A DNA stretch of 50,398 bases, taken from assembly GCA_945868805.1 (NCBI GenBank), contig CAMBMO010000016.1:1-50398 (forward strand), given 5' to 3'. The notes below the pieces were generated by a model, which ran no database searches, was not told the origin of the DNA, and worked only from the letters and a program-made list of their open reading frames with translations. The position numbers and the translations under genes were made by a program. Source of the DNA: Singulisphaera sp. GP187 (GTDB lineage: Bacteria; Planctomycetota; Phycisphaerae; Phycisphaerales; SM1A02). This document shows positions 10,453-24,325 of the stretch, piece by piece. Position 1 is the stretch's first letter; every line of letters begins with the position of its first letter.

Positions 10453-10770
10453 ATGCCCATGACCTCACAAACATCGCGGACATCACAACTTTCCAACAGC
10501 GAGCCCGATCCTCGATGCTGTCCACACATGGAAACCAACGACCATCGCTGCACCTCAAGGTTTGCCCTCGGCGAGGTCGAGCAGCTCTTCGCATACTGCT
10601 GTGGCGGGTTCCACGGCTGCGCCCTCTTTCACCGGATCAACATGGAAGTGCGGTTTCGTGAAACCGTGGGCGATCGGAACAGAGGCGTCTTGCAACCCAA
10701 TCGATCTCCCGCCCTGATGAATCCCACAGTCCATGGAATCGCCTCCCGTAGCTACAAAAAAGCGCCGTGA
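10453..10770 (+). CDS. Small Cys/His-rich protein
   Basis: A 105-residue frame with the segment CCPHMETNDHRCTSRFAL, then VEQLFAYCCGGFHGCALFH, about residues 22-63. The spacing C-C-P-H-(7)-C-(16)-C-C-(4)-C-(4)-H suggests a small metal-binding site or redox fold. I have seen similar 'CPH/CPFL...RC...CxGxxxxCxxY' proteins in bacteria but cannot name a family. The frame after residue 75 is low complexity and overlaps the recombinase start by 38 bases, so the two may be co-translated. The role is unknown; a metal-binding regulatory or accessory protein would fit. Confidence 0.5.
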   Translation: MPMTSQTSRTSQLSNSEPDPRCCPHMETNDHRCTSRFALGEVEQLFAYCCGGFHGCALFHRINMEVRFRETVGDRNRGVLQPNRSPALMNPTVHGIASRSYKKAP

Positions 10771-11719
10771 CTTTCTGGCCTTCTGCCAGATCGAATGCGG
10801 ACTCGCGAAGCTGACTCTCGAGGCGTACGGGCGAGACCTAGACCTCCTAGCGTGCTATCTGCGCCAGCGTGGCAACGACGATCTATCGACCGCGACGATG
10901 CACGATCTGACGAATCACATCCAGTGGCTCTCGCGCGAACGAGAGTACGCACCGACAACCATCACCCGTCATCTTGCGACCATTCGGGTTTTCTTTCGCT
11001 GGCTCCATGCGACGGGATCGATCGCGAGGGACCCGGCGAGATTGCTCGAGCGACCGACAGCGTGGAAGCGACTCCCTGGAGCCATGACCGCAAAGCAGAT
11101 GAAGGCGCTCGTCGAGACCCCTTCGCCTGAGTCTGGTCCGCTCTGGTTACGAGACCGCGCAATGCTCGAACTGCTCTACGGCGGTGGACTGCGAGCGAGC
11201 GAAGTCTGCACAGTGAAGGTGAACGACTTTCACGAAACACTTGGAGCGCTCGCGGTGACGGGAAAGGGTGGCAAGCAGCGCATCGTGCCGATCGGAGTTC
11301 CCGCGATCAAATGGACAATGCGGTATCTCGAGGAGTGCCGACCGGGGCTCGCCGCCGTCAGCGCTGGGCGCGACGCGTTTCGATTATTGCTCTCGTTTTC
11401 GGGCCGTCCCCTCGACCGAGTGGCGATCTGGCAGTTGGTGAAGAAGAACGCGGCGCGCGCAGGTCTTAAGGATGTCCACCCACACACACTTCGGCACTCC
11501 TTCGCGACCCATCTCGTCAATGGCGGGGCGGATTTGCGTGTTGTGCAAGAACTGCTTGGTCACTCGAGCATCACGACGACTCAGGTCTACACGCATGTCA
11601 CACGCGATCACCTGAGGGAAGTCATCGCGAATTGCCATCCTCGAGAGATGAAAATGAAAAAGGTGACGCCGATCGTGGCAGTCAAGCGTCAACCGATCGT
11701 CAGTCGCCGCGGGAAGTAG
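10733..11719 (+). CDS. Tyrosine recombinase, XerC/XerD-like
   Basis: This 328-residue site-specific recombinase has an N-terminal SAM-like core-binding domain (residues about 12-100, FLAFCQIECGLAKLTLEAYG) and a complete catalytic domain. Catalytic residues are Arg154 in GGLRASE, Lys178 in GKGGKQR, His251 and Arg254 in HTLRHSFATH, His277 in LGHSS and nucleophile Tyr286 in TTQVYTH. Length and the LLGHSSI...YTHV motif fit chromosome-dimer resolvases rather than phage integrases, which are usually longer. XerC and XerD cannot be told apart here. The last 31 bases overlap the 3' end of trpS on the other strand. The C-terminal 25 residues are an unusual basic tail (KMKKVTPIVAVKRQ). Confidence 0.93.
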   Translation: MESPPVATKKRRDFLAFCQIECGLAKLTLEAYGRDLDLLACYLRQRGNDDLSTATMHDLTNHIQWLSREREYAPTTITRHLATIRVFFRWLHATGSIARDPARLLERPTAWKRLPGAMTAKQMKALVETPSPESGPLWLRDRAMLELLYGGGLRASEVCTVKVNDFHETLGALAVTGKGGKQRIVPIGVPAIKWTMRYLEECRPGLAAVSAGRDAFRLLLSFSGRPLDRVAIWQLVKKNAARAGLKDVHPHTLRHSFATHLVNGGADLRVVQELLGHSSITTTQVYTHVTRDHLREVIANCHPREMKMKKVTPIVAVKRQPIVSRRGK

Positions 11720-15977: not shown

Positions 15978-16009
15978 TCTTCAGATCAGCGAGTCTTCAG
16001 ATCACCGAG
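15978..16009. repeat. 16-bp direct repeat spanning the end of the ABC gene
   Basis: TCTTCAGATCAGCGAG (15978-15993) is followed directly by a copy with one change, TCTTCAGATCACCGAG (15994-16009). The second copy covers the last codons and stop of the minus-strand ABC transporter gene; the first is a duplication just beyond it. Confidence 0.7.
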
Positions 16010-18696
16010 TCATCCTTCGAATCGATCATCTGTCGTTTGGCAAGTTCCTTGAACGGTCCTTCGACCCCGATCAATTCGCTGTAGCTGCCTGACTGGACGA
16101 CTTTCCCCGAATCCATCACATAGATCTTCTTCACTGTCCGAACGGTGCTCAGGCGATGCGCCACGATGATTCGAGTCGCATTGAGCCGCTCAAGGCTTCG
16201 CACAACTTGAGACTGCGAAATCTCGTCGAGTGCGCTTGTCGCTTCGTCAAAAATCAAGATGCGCGGACGGGTCACCAACGCGCGCGCGATCATAAGTTTT
16301 TGGACTTGCCCACCCGAAAGTGTCTGATCGGTGACATATGTGTGGACCCCCATTGGCATTTGGCCGACTTCCGCGTCGAAGCCGGCGGCCTCGATCGCCG
16401 CTTCCGCATGCTTGGCCGTGAAGAGCGTGCTCCCGACGATGTTTTCCAGGATCGTCCCCGGTATGACGCGCGTGTTCTGAACGACCGCTCCGATTTGACG
16501 ACGAACCGAGACGAGGTCGATTCGATCGAGCGCCTTGCCGTCATACATCACGCCACCGGAAGTCGGCATCCTCAGACCGAGCAGCAACTGCAAGAGCGTC
16601 GATTTCCCACTTCCACTCGGACCGACGATCGCGACGCTCTCGCCCGCTTCGACTCGAATACTCACCCCCGTCAGCACTTCGTTGGCAGTTCCCGGATATG
16701 TGAACCGCGCGTCGGTGATCTCGACCTGACCAGAGAGCGTTCCAGGTTGTTCGCGCTCGCCCATTCGCTCGATGGGTGCTTCGAGAATGGGATCGATTCG
16801 TCGAAGCATAGATCGCAGGGTCGCGAGATCCCCAAGGCGTTCCCCAAGTTCCAGCACCGCGTAGAGCGCTGTCACAAACGCGCTATTGAAGACGAGATAG
16901 GCGGCGACTCGCTCGGGAGTCGCGAGTGCCTGTCCTTCCAAGAATCGGCCCGAATCCCCAACTGGCAAAAACATCGCCCAGAAGATCATCATGCACGCCA
17001 TCGGAAACGCCGCTGCAAAGACATCGAACGCGCGATCGAGTGCACGGATCTGCGAGATCGAACCTCGGATTTCTCGAAAGCTGCGGAACCAGCGCATCGT
17101 CGCGAACTGCTCCGCAGATGCTCCCCGAATTGTGTCGATGCCACCAATGAACTCGAGAACCATGCTCGACAATCGGCCTTGACCCTCCATGATCTTGGAT
17201 GTCAATTGCGCCCGACCCGCGCTCATAAGCGCGCTTGCGAGGATCGCGACGAGAAGAAGCCCTGCGCCGACGAGCCCAGCGGACGGGTTCACCGCGAGCA
17301 TGACCGCCAGATAAACCATCGAGAAGACGCCCGCCATGATTGATGCGATGCCGGCACCAGAAATCACCGACTGCAAGTCGCCGACGGCAAGTATTCGATC
17401 GGCCAAGTCACCGCTCGAAAATTGACGGAAGGCGTGCACGGGCATGCGAAGACAGCGATCCAAGACTCCCCCAAGAGCGCGCGTTCCCATTCGCGTCTCG
17501 GTGCGCAGGAGCAAGTTCGATACGACGAATCCGCACGCGGATGAAGACAAGGTCGTTCCCAGCAGCACGAGTCCAAGGAAGACAAGCGCGAGCTGATTGT
17601 CGCCTGGTAGGACTTTGATGACGAGCACGCCGGTCGCGATCGGAATCGCGAGATTGACGATTGTGCCGAGTCCCGAGATCAGCAATGCACGCACGAAGTC
17701 ATTCTCCGAACCGTGCATCGTGAATCGAATGAATTGTCGCCGCGTCGTCGCTCGATGTGGGAGAGTCGCATGAAACTGCGACGCCGTTGGCGAGAGGCCC
17801 CGAGCGAACTCTGCGTCGACTTCGATCGGGCCAATCGTCGCGCCAGCCGAGTGAACGAACGCAGCGAAGCCGGCGCGCCTCGGCAGAATCGCCACGGGCG
17901 ACTGATCGTCCGCGCGGAATGCGAGGAGCGCGTCCACCCCGCTCTTCCACCATCCCGGATCGAGAAAGACTGGGCGTATACCCAACGCCGCGACGTGCGC
18001 GAAAATCTGCTCTGGGCGTCTGGTCGTGTCTCTGGGGATCCGCGTTGGGATCGAATCTGGATCGCAACCCACCGCAATTGCGACTTGCGTGCAAGCTCGA
18101 ATAATCGGAGCCAATCGATCATCGGGGAGATCGCGTCCAGCGATCCGCTTGCGACTGCGAAGCAAAGTCTGAAGTCGCTGATCGAACGAGAGTGCCGCGC
18201 TCGCGGTGCTTACAAGTCTGCGCAGGTGTCGCGAGAATGCGTTTTCACAGACGATCTCGCCGCGGCGACCCATTTCACTTGCGCATCGCTGGCAAGCCGA
18301 GGCGAGCGCGCCACTGGGAGCCTGATGCGTGGAAAGCGAGCTTCCGCACGCCGCCAGCGCTTCACCGATTCCCCGCACAAGGGCGATTTCTGTCGCGGAG
18401 CCACTCTGAATCGCCGCGATGCGCTCGATCGGGATCCGCACAACTTCGATGTCGCTGACTGGGACGATTTCGAGGTTCGCGTTTGATCCGACAAAGACAT
18501 GTCCCTGCAAGAACACTCCAACCTTGTGCCGTCTTGAGTGGTCGTCACGGTGCGCAAATACAACTGCGCTTCCCTTCGTCAAAACAAACAGATCGAGGAG
18601 TTGATCGCCCCGGATGCTCTGGCGTCGATCGAAAAAGACCGAGTGTCCTCCAGCGCCAAGCGCAAGCGTCGCAACATCGCCTGGCGAAGCGTTCAA
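15997..18696 (-). CDS. NHLM-type bacteriocin-system ABC transporter without peptidase
   Basis: This 899-residue fused permease-ATPase is the third gene of the export operon. The N-terminal 330 residues form a cytoplasmic domain without C39 catalytic residues; it starts with a cupin-like or cyclic-nucleotide-like sensor fold (LFVLTKGSAVVF, VGVFLQGHVFVGS). An ABC transmembrane domain follows (about 340-640, FVRALLISGLGTIVNLAIPI), then an ATPase with Walker A GPSGSGKST, signature LSGGQ and Walker B ILIFDEATSALD. This layout matches the second ABC protein of NHLM (nitrile-hydratase-leader microcin) export systems, which probably pairs with the peptidase-bearing ABC protein. Its ATG overlaps the upstream TGA as ATGA. 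Confidence 0.88.
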   Translation of the reverse strand: MNASPGDVATLALGAGGHSVFFDRRQSIRGDQLLDLFVLTKGSAVVFAHRDDHSRRHKVGVFLQGHVFVGSNANLEIVPVSDIEVVRIPIERIAAIQSGSATEIALVRGIGEALAACGSSLSTHQAPSGALASACQRCASEMGRRGEIVCENAFSRHLRRLVSTASAALSFDQRLQTLLRSRKRIAGRDLPDDRLAPIIRACTQVAIAVGCDPDSIPTRIPRDTTRRPEQIFAHVAALGIRPVFLDPGWWKSGVDALLAFRADDQSPVAILPRRAGFAAFVHSAGATIGPIEVDAEFARGLSPTASQFHATLPHRATTRRQFIRFTMHGSENDFVRALLISGLGTIVNLAIPIATGVLVIKVLPGDNQLALVFLGLVLLGTTLSSSACGFVVSNLLLRTETRMGTRALGGVLDRCLRMPVHAFRQFSSGDLADRILAVGDLQSVISGAGIASIMAGVFSMVYLAVMLAVNPSAGLVGAGLLLVAILASALMSAGRAQLTSKIMEGQGRLSSMVLEFIGGIDTIRGASAEQFATMRWFRSFREIRGSISQIRALDRAFDVFAAAFPMACMMIFWAMFLPVGDSGRFLEGQALATPERVAAYLVFNSAFVTALYAVLELGERLGDLATLRSMLRRIDPILEAPIERMGEREQPGTLSGQVEITDARFTYPGTANEVLTGVSIRVEAGESVAIVGPSGSGKSTLLQLLLGLRMPTSGGVMYDGKALDRIDLVSVRRQIGAVVQNTRVIPGTILENIVGSTLFTAKHAEAAIEAAGFDAEVGQMPMGVHTYVTDQTLSGGQVQKLMIARALVTRPRILIFDEATSALDEISQSQVVRSLERLNATRIIVAHRLSTVRTVKKIYVMDSGKVVQSGSYSELIGVEGPFKELAKRQMIDSKDDSVI

Positions 18697-20918
18697 CTTG
18701 TCGCCTCCCCCGCGACCAGATCGCAGTAGACGCCACCAAGTGCGAGAAGTTGATCGTGCGTTCCACGCTCGACGACTGAACCCGATTCCACGACGACGAT
18801 TTCGTCCGCGTCTCGAATCGTGCTCAACCGATGCGCGACGATGAGGCAGGTGATTCCACGACGCCTCAGAGCGGCATCAAGCGCAAGTTCGGTCACAGGA
18901 TCGAGCGCACTCGTCGCCTCGTCCATAATCAAGAGCGCCGGCCTCCTCGAAAGCGCTCGGGCAATATCGATTCGCTGCGCCTCGCCACCGGAGAAATTTC
19001 CGCCACCTTCCGATACCGGCTGATCAAGCCCACCTCGAGCTGCGATGATGTCGGTCAATTGCGCATCGTCGAGTGCCTCAACCATCCACTGATCAGAGAG
19101 ATCCGGATTCCAGAGCGACAGATTTTCTCTGAGAGATCCTTCGAAAAATGTTGCGCGCTGGAAGACTGTCGCGATGCTCGTCGCTCGCACATGACGCGGA
19201 ATCTCTCCAAGCGGTTGTCCATCGAGCAAGACCTCGCCCTGCCATGGATCGAGGAGCCCCGCCGCGATCCGCGCGACCGTCGATTTTCCCGATCCAGTTC
19301 CTCCGACAATCGCCACGCGCCCACCCGATCGCACACTCAGCGAGAAATCTTCCAGGAGCGGTCGTTGCCCATGTCCATATCCGAAAGTGATGCCACGCAG
19401 CTCAAGTGCCCCCGCTGCGTACTCGGTGACTTGCAGATTGTCGAGACCACTATCCATCGCGAGGCGGTCCACCGCATGGCAATTGACATCGTCGAGTCGC
19501 CCGAGATCCGCGCGCACAACTTGAATCTCCTTGAGAAGTTCGGCAAGCTGAGTGACTGGGGTCATGAAGCCCAGGAGCAGGATCTGCAACCCAAGCAGAG
19601 TGCCGATCGACATCGACCCTTCCATGACTTGCCATCCACCGAATGAAAGTACGAGCACCGAAACGACGACCGACTGAAGCCACGATGGAATGATGCTGAC
19701 TGCATTCGAAAGCAAGCTCGCCCGTTGCTGCGCTGCGCTGACCCGTGCCACAAACCCCATCGAGCGACCGAAGAAGTCCGCTTCGCGACCGCCAGCCTTG
19801 AGCGACTCGAGCGTCAGTAGCCCCGCAACGATCGCGCCCTGCTTCATCCCTTCCTGCTGTGAAAGCGACTGCGCCTGATCGACACGAGCGCGCGCGACGA
19901 AGACGAGCATCGAAAGTGTCGCAAGGACCGCTACCAACGCGATGATTGCCATCGGAATATTGATGTAGGCGATCGCCCCGAGAAAAACGATCAGCGTGAA
20001 AACTTGGACGATTGCAGGTGCGAACTTCGATGCCAGCAGTGATGCGACCGAATCGTTCGACTGGACTCGCTCGGCGATATCTCCTGGATAACGCTGCGCG
20101 AAAAATGTCGTGGGCAGACGGAAGAGCTGTTGAACAAAGCTCACGCTTCGCTCGAGCGCGAGTTGGTGTTCCAATCGTGCGAGCGCTGTCTGCTGGATGA
20201 ACAAGAGCCCAGCTTCAAGCACAAGCGCGACGATGGCTCCGAAGACGATCCATCCCATCCAACCGTCGCGTCCCTGCGCGAGCACCGTGTCAACATATGC
20301 CGCGGCCATTCCTGGGATCGCCACCATCGGCACCGCTAATAGAAGCCCCACAATCACGGTCAGTCCCACGGCAACATCGGATCCGCGCATCCACTGCGTC
20401 ACGAGGCTCAATGAAGATGGAGCGCTCCCAGTCGCCACAAAATCTTCGGCTGGTTCCATCACAAGCACGACTCCCGAAAACTGTTGATCGAATTCTTCAG
20501 GAGTGACGACTCTGCGACCAACAGCTGGATCCATCACTCGGAATCCGCTGCGATTCCACCCCTCTAGTACGACGAAGTGGTTCAGTCCCCAGAAGACAAT
20601 TGCGGGGAGTGCGATCTCTTCCAGATCCTCGACTTCGCACTTGATCCCTTCGGTTGCGAGCCCGAAGTACCGAGCAGCACGTGCGATGCGCAGCGCATTC
20701 GAACCATCACGATCAACTCCCACAGCTTCGCGCACTTCTTCAAGCGGGCGATAGGCGTTGTGATATGCCAACACGCTTGCAAGACTCGCCGCACCGCACT
20801 CGGCCGCGACGACCTGCATGACCGTTGGAACTCGAACACTTCGTGCCTTTCCGCCCGGAAGGAGCGGCGCAATCTCCTCGTCGTCGGCAACTTGCTCGAC
20901 CGCTTCCGCATCACTCAT
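18693..20918 (-). CDS. NHLM-type ABC transporter with C39 leader peptidase
   Basis: This 741-residue protein cuts double-glycine leaders and exports the cargo. Residues about 25-150 are a complete C39 peptidase: Gln35 and Cys41 in MQVVAAECGAASLASVL, His114 in GLNHFVVLEGW and Asp130 in VMDPAVGRR. The transmembrane domain spans about 165-455. The ATPase has Walker A VGGTGSGKST, signature FSGGEAQRIDIARAL and Walker B LLIMDEATSALD. It is the middle gene of the operon, overlapping the adaptor gene by 8 bases and the next ABC gene by 4. The intact catalytic triad argues that the system is active and that a double-glycine substrate exists; the ORF at 15676 is the best candidate seen. Confidence 0.93.
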   Translation of the reverse strand: MSDAEAVEQVADDEEIAPLLPGGKARSVRVPTVMQVVAAECGAASLASVLAYHNAYRPLEEVREAVGVDRDGSNALRIARAARYFGLATEGIKCEVEDLEEIALPAIVFWGLNHFVVLEGWNRSGFRVMDPAVGRRVVTPEEFDQQFSGVVLVMEPAEDFVATGSAPSSLSLVTQWMRGSDVAVGLTVIVGLLLAVPMVAIPGMAAAYVDTVLAQGRDGWMGWIVFGAIVALVLEAGLLFIQQTALARLEHQLALERSVSFVQQLFRLPTTFFAQRYPGDIAERVQSNDSVASLLASKFAPAIVQVFTLIVFLGAIAYINIPMAIIALVAVLATLSMLVFVARARVDQAQSLSQQEGMKQGAIVAGLLTLESLKAGGREADFFGRSMGFVARVSAAQQRASLLSNAVSIIPSWLQSVVVSVLVLSFGGWQVMEGSMSIGTLLGLQILLLGFMTPVTQLAELLKEIQVVRADLGRLDDVNCHAVDRLAMDSGLDNLQVTEYAAGALELRGITFGYGHGQRPLLEDFSLSVRSGGRVAIVGGTGSGKSTVARIAAGLLDPWQGEVLLDGQPLGEIPRHVRATSIATVFQRATFFEGSLRENLSLWNPDLSDQWMVEALDDAQLTDIIAARGGLDQPVSEGGGNFSGGEAQRIDIARALSRRPALLIMDEATSALDPVTELALDAALRRRGITCLIVAHRLSTIRDADEIVVVESGSVVERGTHDQLLALGGVYCDLVAGEATS

Positions 20919-21786
20919 GGCGATCGCGAGTCTGGGAATCCAACTCCGGCATGATCAATGCGACGGGTCGAATCTCGCCGATGGTGATTTCGATATCACA
21001 CGGAGCGCCGTCGATAAGTAGCCCCGCCGCGCCCTTCCCCGAATTCCACTTCACTCCGCCACCTCCCGCTGGGTCTGCGTCGAGCAAGACCGTGACGGCC
21101 ATCACGGGGCCGTACTGCTGGCGAATCGCGTCGACGAATGTCGGGTTTGGTACTCGACCGTGCATTTTTTCTTCGCTCGTTATGAAACTGTCGACATAAT
21201 CCACGTGACCAACGGCTTGGGCGGCGCCAAGGGCATCGGCTGTTGAAAATTCCAATCGAACTGGCATTCCGACGACAACGCACTTTCCTTCGCTCAGGGG
21301 GATGAACGCGATGCATCTGGGAGCGTCCGATCCCGATGCGATGACAGCGACAACTCGACCCGAGGTGACGAAATCGCCCACTTCCACTTCGATCGAGACG
21401 ACTCGACCCGAGACTGGCGAAAGCGCTTCCGTTGGCTGTCCATCAGAGTCGGACGGTCCGGCCGCGACGATCGCGATGCATTCTCCCGCTTGAACACGGT
21501 CGCCCTCGCGCTTGCGAACTTCACTGACATGCCCCTGCGCGAAAGTGTTGCATGTATCCATCCGTTCGCCACGAAGGAAGATGCCAGTGCCTATCACCGT
21601 GATCGGAATGCGACCCATGAATCCCCATGCCACGATGGTCGCGAGCAGAAATGCGAGTGCGCTCGTCAGCACCCACAGCCGAGGCGAGATGATCGGGCTG
21701 AGCGCATGGAGTCGATTTCCACCCCCTGCAGCCGCGAGGGCACCGGCTCGAAAAATCTTTTTGTCTCCATCGACTTCGGGTGACAT
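20911..21786 (-). CDS. HlyD-like secretion adaptor of the NHLM-type system
   Basis: This 291-residue membrane-fusion protein has a short cytoplasmic N-terminus, one membrane span (about residues 36-58, LWVLTSALAFLLATIVAWGF) and a periplasmic lipoyl/barrel region: GHVSEVRKREGDRVQAGECI, then SPVSGRVVSIEVEVGDFVTSG. The spacer between the lipoyl halves is only about 25 residues (AAGPSDSDGQPTEAL), so the long alpha-helical hairpin of classical HlyD that contacts a TolC channel is missing. It matches the short adaptors of NHLM bacteriocin systems. It is the first gene of the operon adaptor-ABC-ABC; no ribosome-binding site stands out before its start. Confidence 0.85.
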   Translation of the reverse strand: MSPEVDGDKKIFRAGALAAAGGGNRLHALSPIISPRLWVLTSALAFLLATIVAWGFMGRIPITVIGTGIFLRGERMDTCNTFAQGHVSEVRKREGDRVQAGECIAIVAAGPSDSDGQPTEALSPVSGRVVSIEVEVGDFVTSGRVVAVIASGSDAPRCIAFIPLSEGKCVVVGMPVRLEFSTADALGAAQAVGHVDYVDSFITSEEKMHGRVPNPTFVDAIRQQYGPVMAVTVLLDADPAGGGGVKWNSGKGAAGLLIDGAPCDIEITIGEIRPVALIMPELDSQTRDRHE

Positions 21787-22302: not shown

Positions 22303-23312
22303 TTCCGATCGAGGGCAATCTGGATGGGGCGTTTCGTGCCGAGCGACTGCCAACACAAGACCTGCCGACGTGCGCGGAATCTTTCCCCCGACACGCTCAC
22401 GACAATCTGATCCATGTCCGGCACCAGAACCTCGGGAGTGCAACCATTCGCGTCGGTTTTCACCGACCATCCATTGGGATCCCTCGCGATACCGTCGAAT
22501 TGCTTCCCGAGTTCGACTGTTGCGTTTGCGATCGGCGCGCCGGAATTGCCATCGATCGCCCGAAGAATGGCGGGCTTGCTCGCGACACGAGCGAGTGTCA
22601 CATCGAGTCGCTCGTTGCCATCCAGTCGATCGAGTGCGATGCGCTGGGTCGCTCGTCCCACCATCCGAACATAAAGATAGTTTCGAAGCCCTCGGTGAGC
22701 CGTCACCACGACACACCCTGTCGCATCCGTTTCGAGTCGCTGAATCGGTGGTCGACCCCACTCGCTCTCGGTTCCATCCTTTGGGAGAAAAAGGCCCGTC
22801 TCGACAATTGCCTCCGCGGCAGGAAGTGCGGCTCCTGCCTCGTCTCGAACGCACAGACGAAGTTGCCATGGGACGATGCGATTCAATCGCACATCGATCA
22901 CGGCATGATCGGCGAGTCGCTCGAAGTCGATAGAGTTTTCGGGCGAGACATCAACCTTCAAAAGCGGTGGCTCGAGCGACTTGGCACTTCCCTTCGGCTC
23001 GGGAACGATTGAGAGTCCAGTCGGAACATAGCCAGGTCGCAGAAGCGCCAGACTCGTTCCCCGCGCATTCAGCACGAGGTCGATCCGTCCGTCGCCATCA
23101 GTCTTTGGCGCGTCGCCCTTGCGCGGGATGAACTGAAAGAAGCGGGCTCCGTGCTGTCGGACATCGACATCGGCGATGGGGTTTCCCGTTGCGCTATCGA
23201 GGACGTGAAGTTGGACTGGCTTCGAGACGCATCCGCCTGCGAAAGCAAGCAGAATTCCCACGAAAACCGCGCATGACGGGCGAACCGTCGAACAAATGTG
23301 GCGGGAGATCAT
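22299..23312 (-). CDS. Lipoprotein with carboxypeptidase-regulatory-like repeats
   Basis: A 337-residue protein with a lipoprotein signal: hydrophobic VFVGILLAFAGG followed by Cys28 (lipobox FAGGC). The mature part contains at least two beta-sandwich modules of the carboxypeptidase-regulatory/Ig-like type: LHVLDSATGNPIADVDVRQHG...TDGDGRIDLVL and LRAIDGNSGAPIANATVELG...TDANGCTPEVLV. Between them lies a third, weaker copy (LRLCVRDEAGAALPAAEAIV...TDATGCVVV). It should sit on the periplasmic side of a membrane. The function is unknown; such modules usually mediate protein or glycan contacts. It is co-transcribed with apaG by a 4-base overlap. Confidence 0.85.
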   Translation of the reverse strand: MISRHICSTVRPSCAVFVGILLAFAGGCVSKPVQLHVLDSATGNPIADVDVRQHGARFFQFIPRKGDAPKTDGDGRIDLVLNARGTSLALLRPGYVPTGLSIVPEPKGSAKSLEPPLLKVDVSPENSIDFERLADHAVIDVRLNRIVPWQLRLCVRDEAGAALPAAEAIVETGLFLPKDGTESEWGRPPIQRLETDATGCVVVTAHRGLRNYLYVRMVGRATQRIALDRLDGNERLDVTLARVASKPAILRAIDGNSGAPIANATVELGKQFDGIARDPNGWSVKTDANGCTPEVLVPDMDQIVVSVSGERFRARRQVLCWQSLGTKRPIQIALDRK

Positions 23313-23368
23313 GGAAATGAGAACTGTGATACGGGGCGGACTTCGCTACTATGAAAACCCAGTCACTT

Positions 23369-23439
23369 TGGGGATTGGTGTAACGGTAGCACAACTGACT
23401 CTGACTCAGTTTGTCCTAGTTCGAATCTAGGATCCCCAG
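23369..23439 (+). tRNA. tRNA-Gln (anticodon CTG)
   Basis: A 71-nt cloverleaf: acceptor TGGGGAT/ATCCCCA with discriminator G, D stem GTGT/GCAC, anticodon stem ACTGA/TCAGT with loop CTCTGAC (anticodon CTG), T arm CCTAG-TTCGAAT-CTAGG. The weak U1:A72 pair is typical of glutamine tRNAs. The CCA is not encoded. Its last 9 bases are the first part of a tandem repeat. Confidence 0.95.
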
Positions 23440-23510
23440 TTTCCGATTCCGCGATCCCCAGTTTCCGATTCCGCGATCCCCAGTTTCCGATTCCGCGATC
23501 CCCAGTTTCC
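23431..23510. repeat. 22-bp tandem repeat seeded by the tRNA-Gln 3' end
   Basis: The unit GATCCCCAGTTTCCGATTCC-GC is repeated exactly at 23431-23452, 23453-23474 and 23475-23496, and 14 bases of a fourth copy follow to 23510. The first nine bases of copy one are the 3' end of tRNA-Gln. The block separates the tRNA from the convergent dockerin-like gene. Confidence 0.95.
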
Positions 23511-23524
23511 CAAGCTCTTTCCGG

Positions 23525-24253
23525 TCACGACGTCCAGGCCGAGAGCAATGTCGCGATGTCGGAACCATCGACCAATCCATCGTCATTGATGTCTGCCGGA
23601 CAATTCATGCATGGTCCCCAGGCACTGAGTACGAACGATAGATCAGCTCCGTTGACACTTCCATCACCGTTGACATCGGACGGATTGGGAAGTCCGGCTG
23701 TGCCTTCAACAGTCAAGGTCAATGCCGCACCGAATCCGCCCGCCTGCCAGACACCGCTTGGCAGTGACGTCGCGCTGAAGGTATTGCCGACCGACGCAAA
23801 ATTCCAGACTGGATCTGATCCACCCGACGCTGTCGATTCCGCGACGACCCAATACTTCACTCCCGAATGAAGTGCAACCCCACCCGTGGAGAGCACGACC
23901 TCTTGAATTGGACTCCACCCGAGTGCCTGAACATTGAATATCCACTGCTCAATCACGGTGTTGCTTGGCGTACTGACCGTTCCTGCCGACTGATCGGTTC
24001 GCAAGGTGATTCTGACTGTGGGATGCGCTGACGAACTGTTGTTCATGAACCAAATCTTGATCGAGGTCAGGGTGAAGTCACCGTTTGGAATGAACCGAGC
24101 ACCCACGGATTGCTGGTTTGACACATCCGCGCCCCACAGACCGAAGAACCCGCCAAAGGGACCTGCAGTCGTATGGATGATCGCCGCGAATGCGCTCCCC
24201 GCGATTGCGATGGCGAGGACGGTCGCTGGGATCTTGTGGCGCAGGGCAAGCAT
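23525..24253 (-). CDS. Secreted protein with C-terminal dockerin-like repeats
   Basis: A 242-residue exported protein. The start at 24253 gives a clean signal peptide (MLALRHKIPATVLAIAIAGS, cleavage near AFA-AI); an ATG 21 bases upstream is also open. Residues about 25-180 form a beta-rich domain (TSIKIWFMNNSSSAHPTVRI, GVKYWVVAES, VWNFASVGNTF) resembling choice-of-anchor sandwich domains of planctomycete extracellular proteins. The C-terminus has two calcium-loop repeats, DVNGDGSVNGADLSFVLSAWG and DINDDGLVDGSDIATLLSAW, linked by a CMNC pair, as in dockerin type I or GC-type dockerin tails. It probably attaches to a surface partner; ligand unknown. Confidence 0.85.
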   Translation of the reverse strand: MLALRHKIPATVLAIAIAGSAFAAIIHTTAGPFGGFFGLWGADVSNQQSVGARFIPNGDFTLTSIKIWFMNNSSSAHPTVRITLRTDQSAGTVSTPSNTVIEQWIFNVQALGWSPIQEVVLSTGGVALHSGVKYWVVAESTASGGSDPVWNFASVGNTFSATSLPSGVWQAGGFGAALTLTVEGTAGLPNPSDVNGDGSVNGADLSFVLSAWGPCMNCPADINDDGLVDGSDIATLLSAWTS

Positions 24254-24325
24254 TTCAAGTGAATTGTGACACAAGAGGTAACGAAGTCAAGGCGGATTGG
24301 AGCGCTTGGAACTAGTTTCTCGCTC

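Follow-up and report, generated by a model that had tools for sequence, protein, structure and literature searches.

The tRNA-Gln(CTG) gene analyzed here, from an uncultured planctomycete-type bacterium, runs directly into a perfect array of short tandem units. Judging from its sequence, we consider it very likely that this array is a minisatellite that arose over the 3' edge of the gene, either by replication slippage or by another duplication based on short homology.

The array and its context

Within the window (the whole stretch of 50,398 nucleotides that was analyzed), Tandem Repeats Finder places the array at 23431-23510, with a period of 22, 3.6 copies, a 100% match and a score of 160 (Table 1). 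We take GATCCCCAG (23431-23439) as the last nine bases of the tRNA because Infernal ends the gene at 23439; the span given by ARAGORN is one base longer at each end than the 23369-23439 of Infernal. The two programs, Tandem Repeats Finder and Infernal, confirm the original prediction: three perfect 22-bp copies are followed by 14 bp of another, in an array that starts with the nine terminal bases of tRNA-Gln. As expected of a minisatellite, the units stand head to tail with high identity.

Table 1. Coordinates of the tRNA-Gln(CTG) gene, the array copies and the flanking gene in the window
Feature	Position	Strand	Evidence or remark
tRNA-Gln(CTG), intact, CCA not encoded	23369..23439	+	Infernal RF00005, 62.7 bits; ARAGORN
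Likely parent segment CGAATCTAGGATCCCCAGTTTC, T-loop to trailer, 22 bases	23422..23443	+	18/22 identical to the unit in the same register
Array copy 1 of GATCCCCAGTTTCCGATTCCGC, bases 1-9 being the tRNA-Gln 3' end	23431..23452	+	Tandem Repeats Finder
Array copy 2, perfect	23453..23474	+	Tandem Repeats Finder
Array copy 3, perfect	23475..23496	+	Tandem Repeats Finder
Array copy 4, partial, 14 bases	23497..23510	+	Tandem Repeats Finder
Convergent gene, weak dockerin-type matches (under curated cut-offs)	23525..24274	-	Stop codon ends 15 bases beyond the array

The 22-mer, with up to 3 mismatches, occurs three times in the window, against a mean of 0 over 100 shuffles. Searched for with the same tolerance, a 20-base portion of the unit matches just the three array sites in the own genome (2.50 Mb in 47 contigs, a 95.8% complete draft, called G000 among the 19 genomes of the genus), and the reversed pattern, used as a control, gave 1 match. 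The unit was thus not found at other tRNAs of the genome, where the original prediction had suggested looking for it. An exact search for copies of tRNA tails (at least 8 bases, within 250 bases downstream of 43 tRNAs in G000 and 39 in G001) found a tail array at tRNA-Gln(CTG) only, in both genomes; this search is blind to degenerate cases, tRNA-Trp being one. Its other matches were one of 20 bases behind tRNA-Gly(TCC), those between adjacent tRNA-Glu genes, one of 9 bases behind tRNA-His, and scattered ones of 8 bases. The tRNA-Gly(TCC) copy is exact, covers the 3' end of the tRNA from the T-loop to the end plus one T, and lies 137 bases downstream of the gene (L041 1710-1729, G000:C1). It is absent from the corresponding trailer in G011.

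The draft state of the assembly, with its 47 contigs, could suggest that the array is an assembly artefact. However, an 80-bp array is shorter than the usual read, and G001, which is another species, carries an array of its own at the same place. We give the artefact almost no chance. Elsewhere in the window, positions 15997-21786 likely hold NHLP-type bacteriocin export genes, with two ABC transporters, one of them bearing a C39 peptidase domain, and an HlyD-like protein whose match to the NHLM secretion model falls under the cut-off.

Origin of the repeat unit

Read in the register of the G001 array, the unit is CGATTCCGCGATCCCCAGTTTC and the matching segment of the tRNA and its first trailer bases is CGAATCTAGGATCCCCAGTTTC. 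They are of equal length and differ by 4 changes. The last 13 bases are common by construction and the remaining 9 carry the test; these upstream bases match the T-loop at 5 of 9 positions (p about 0.045). The comparison is suggestive of a unit derived from the segment between the T-loop and the trailer, and we rate it no higher because it depends mainly on the junction TTTC/CGA, which is identical in G001. Given the weak 5/9 match, the parent could have comprised just the nine bases of the tRNA and the trailer, leaving 8 bases unaccounted for. Since the unit matches the segment from the T-loop to the trailer both in length and in register, and departs from it by 4 changes, the first duplication probably comprised more than nine bases, which then decayed and were re-amplified.

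Slippage could have built the array in three steps. The 22 bases from the CGA of the T-loop to the TTTC of the trailer would have been duplicated, with the aid of the short homology between the T-loop TTC and the trailer TTTCC. The extra copy, being unconstrained, would then have acquired 4 changes. Finally, as the perfect identity of the copies suggests, the altered unit may have been amplified to three copies. The original prediction read this identity as the sign of a recent expansion. The copies are indeed identical, but the unit itself differs from its likely tRNA/trailer parent at 4 of 22 positions. Replication slippage, one of the two origins that had been put forward, agrees with our observations. 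Selection would not have purged the array because the first copy always keeps the tRNA gene complete. The array occupies the gap ahead of the convergent gene, and in the simplest account it needs no function.

Distribution among relatives

Arrays at tRNA-Gln are lineage-specific, as expected of a minisatellite: they are present in 2 of the 19 genomes of the genus, G000 and G001, which are not sisters (trailers were inspected for 18 genomes, and G007 is covered by the array count alone). The G001 array has a 23-bp unit, the same junction, and near-exact copies of the last 18 bases of the tRNA; the four additional copies depart from the G001 tRNA segment at 1, 2, 2 and 3 of 23 bases. In the ClpB tree (17 of the 19 genomes, omitting G004 and G006, with three partial rows), G000 and G001 belong to different groups. 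Its strongly supported branches require two changes, and a history with a single change is compatible with 0% of 200 bootstrap trees. Hence, two origins of the arrays are favoured. The junction common to both could instead reflect one old origin followed by several losses.

Other traces of duplication at this gene are few. In two sister-like genomes, G003 (L144) and G006 (L145), a lone second ATCCCCAA lies 31 bases past tRNA-Gln, behind a CAGGC..GCCTG inverted repeat. A scan of genome contigs gave 11 stretches, five with tRNA-Gln and six that are simple repeats without a tRNA. The clear duplications among the five are L202 (G001) and L203; L204, L205 and L207 have just one further 8-base match at tRNA-Gln. 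In L203 (JAUIDL010000050.1, a MAG of unstated kinship), the tRNA-Gln(CTG) 3' end is duplicated exactly over 20 bases, after 14 bases. The pattern GATCCCCAR..GATCCCCAR was found in 22 of 298 genomes of the class, and among the 30 loci listed, a draw that did not include G001, tRNA-Gln is present at the own two only. The G047 C87 match, from a different search, is a separate short repeat with no sign of a tRNA.

Attachment sites of mobile elements

Repeated use of an attachment core had been proposed as an alternative origin. The array would then be a string of such cores, left at the tRNA as mobile elements integrated and were lost time and again. The duplicated piece in G001 and L203 extends from the T-loop as far as the 3' end of the tRNA, a stretch known to be used by tRNA-targeting integrases, and the exact copy of the tRNA-Gly(TCC) 3' end in the own genome would also fit. 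Yet the search for tyrosine recombinases (PF00589, Phage_integrase) found two in this nearly complete genome, both Xer-like, and no phage-type integrase gene at tRNA-Gln or elsewhere. Both proteins fall slightly short of the equivalog cut-offs for XerC and XerD, and both exceed that of the PRK00283 tyrosine recombinases. One, at 10733-11719, is the sole such protein among 30 window ORFs (Pfam) and lies amid housekeeping genes, 12 kb from the array; the other is about 0.2 kb from tRNA-Lys(TTT).

Further evidence points in the same direction. No viral contig contains the exact 22-mer, and the unit is unique in the genome. No element lies between two core copies at tRNA-Gln: the units adjoin directly and are too short for elements. 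In 18 of the 19 genomes, tRNA-Gln and clpB share a contig and are separated by about 0.85 to 5 kb (G003 has them on two contigs, and contig ends truncate certain clpB matches). Four genomes, G005, G006, G009 and G011, have a gap of more than 2.5 kb; the ORFs called between the two genes in G005 and G009, the two that were scanned, include no integrase according to Pfam, and one of 443 aa has no Pfam match. The tyrosine recombinases, synteny and viral contigs thus disfavour an attachment-site origin, which we consider highly improbable, and the interpretation given in the original prediction is partly supported.

RNA folding and function

The copies could also act as spare acceptor strands, trapping the 5' half of pre-tRNA-Gln in such a way that copy number tunes maturation. 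In the minimum-energy fold, the 5' acceptor strand pairs with copy 2 or, when a different stretch is folded, with copy 4, instead of its native strand. On average, pairing of the native acceptor drops from 0.85 for the tRNA alone to 0.24 with 84 bases and to about 0 with the entire array; in G001 it falls from 0.87 to 0. However, native pairing is equally low with 200 shuffled-base trailers (median 0.001, mean 0.05), it ranges from 0.008 to 0.854 in six array-free relatives with 85 trailer bases each, and the fold of the array region is not better than those of shuffled sequences (z 0.91). As shuffled trailers and some relatives give an equal effect, competition for the acceptor is not specific to the repeat; we have rejected such a decoy and regard it as extremely unlikely. 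A role as terminator or promoter was also discarded: there is no terminator-like site in 23200-24300, and the only promoter-like site in this region (0.5 expected) is outside the array.

Short tandem arrays in the genome background

Short arrays are about three times as dense in intergenic as in coding DNA. In a 200-kb sample of the own genome there are 12 in 28.0 kb of intergenic versus 23 in 172.0 kb of coding DNA, and in the window with ten stretches from the genus there are 10 in 27.3 kb versus 19 in 208.3 kb; the genes were called by a crude codon-score caller, which missed certain real window genes, e.g., chorismate synthase. In the own genome, arrays were found in 11 of 43 tRNA trailers versus 0 of 43 leaders (p 0.0005). 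Protein genes of the same genome have arrays in 9 of 53 3' flanks (counting those with 60 or more intergenic bases) and in 7 of 68 5' flanks, and the tRNA trailers do not differ significantly from either (p 0.32 and p 0.06, respectively). The corresponding flank counts in the window and the ten stretches are 6 of 54 and 4 of 74. Over five genomes of the genus, arrays are present in 27 of 177 trailers versus 11 of 177 leaders (p 0.009; 20 versus 9 at the stricter score of 50), with an opposite trend in G005 (5 trailers versus 6 leaders) and G011 (1 versus 2). These counts use the tRNAs of ARAGORN, at least one of which is doubtful (a tRNA-Ala in L225, entered as a leader with an array), and the loci of the best 30 of 44, 45 and 44 tRNAs for G005, G008 and G011. 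Judged by the array and flank counts, the tRNA-Gln array is in keeping with a population of intergenic minisatellites spread over the whole genome.

The recurrence of arrays at tRNA-Gln and tRNA-Trp is the sole mildly unusual aspect. Arrays reaching at least 3 bases into the tRNA were found at five 3' ends (those of tRNA-Gln in G000 and G001 and of tRNA-Trp in G000, G001 and G005) and at one 5' end. Arrays recur at the same isoacceptor in 11 pairs versus 6.0 expected (p 0.03), some of which may result from inheritance. It is conceivable, if rather unlikely, that tandem duplication in the genus starts repeatedly at the 3' edges of a few tRNA genes (Gln-CTG, Trp, perhaps Ala and Leu-CAA) and gives rise to one different array after another at a given tRNA, possibly through the stalling of replication by tRNA transcription or termination.

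The trailers of other tRNAs have arrays of several kinds. Those of tRNA-Trp (L058 in G000, L162 in G001 and L231 in G005) begin inside the tRNA 3' end with a different unit in each, and in G000 and G005 the unit is similar, by eye, to the tail of the tRNA itself. Two tRNA-Met(CAT) genes of G000 (L069, L070) are followed by tandem copies of one hairpin, GTACTCGCCCTGCGGCGAGTA, in 33- and 36-bp units. Immediately behind tRNA-Ala(GGC), two species have arrays with the common core TTCACGCGCC: G005 a 26-bp unit in 3.6 copies (L240) and G008 a 25-bp unit in 4 (L271). In the own species, an 11-bp array is situated near tRNA-Ala(GGC), at 1197-1226 of the window. Behind tRNA-Leu(CAG) of G000 (L081), the 10-bp TAGCCGGATG is repeated 8.5 times from 2 bases past the tRNA, an array that is absent in G001.

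Relation to known repeats

The array is ordinary in the sense that it is a further case of a known kind of structure. The tyrT/tyrV (rtT, RttR) repeats of Escherichia coli are likewise repetitions of the 3' end of a tRNA, located behind the gene from which it comes: in K-12 MG1655, three exact copies of the final 19 bases of tyrV follow downstream, with a spacing of 178 bases. The tRNA-Gln array is the same kind of structure, outside that RNA family. The 178-bp unit at tyrV includes an annotated RNA (rttR) and a small ORF (tpr), whereas the unit described here has 22 bp and its tRNA gene does not encode CCA. The Rfam RtT model RF00391 has 0 matches in the own genome, and the E. coli control was positive. 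For Salmonella, an indel table gives the rtT RNA as a 175-bp VNTR (PMC2658671).

Slippage between repeats mostly shorter than 30 bp is named as one source of small-scale genome variation in PMC2884548. The tRNA-Gln array resembles the bacterial minisatellites and VNTRs that arise by short-homology slippage, with short, perfect, head-to-tail intergenic units, but differs from them in extending into a tRNA gene and in being known here from one genome per species. Another partial copy of a tRNA gene, beside the insertion of an element, is that of PYG1 at tRNA-Gln of Pyrococcus yayanosii, which PMC9897764 describes as a 21.4-kb island between two 44-bp repeats. Unlike the PYG1 repeats, the units of the tRNA-Gln array abut, and neither an island nor, in the PF00589 search, a phage-type integrase was found. 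Among the literature matches listed, whose coverage leaves out most subscription papers, there is no report of a short array of a tRNA end in bacteria, and we do not claim that none exists.

The array shows a tRNA tail multiplying with no mobile element evident. This is relevant for the programs that search for genomic islands, since they take direct repeats of tRNA ends for attachment scars. If the edges of tRNA genes are true hotspots of duplication, the genus would offer natural replicates for testing the cause.
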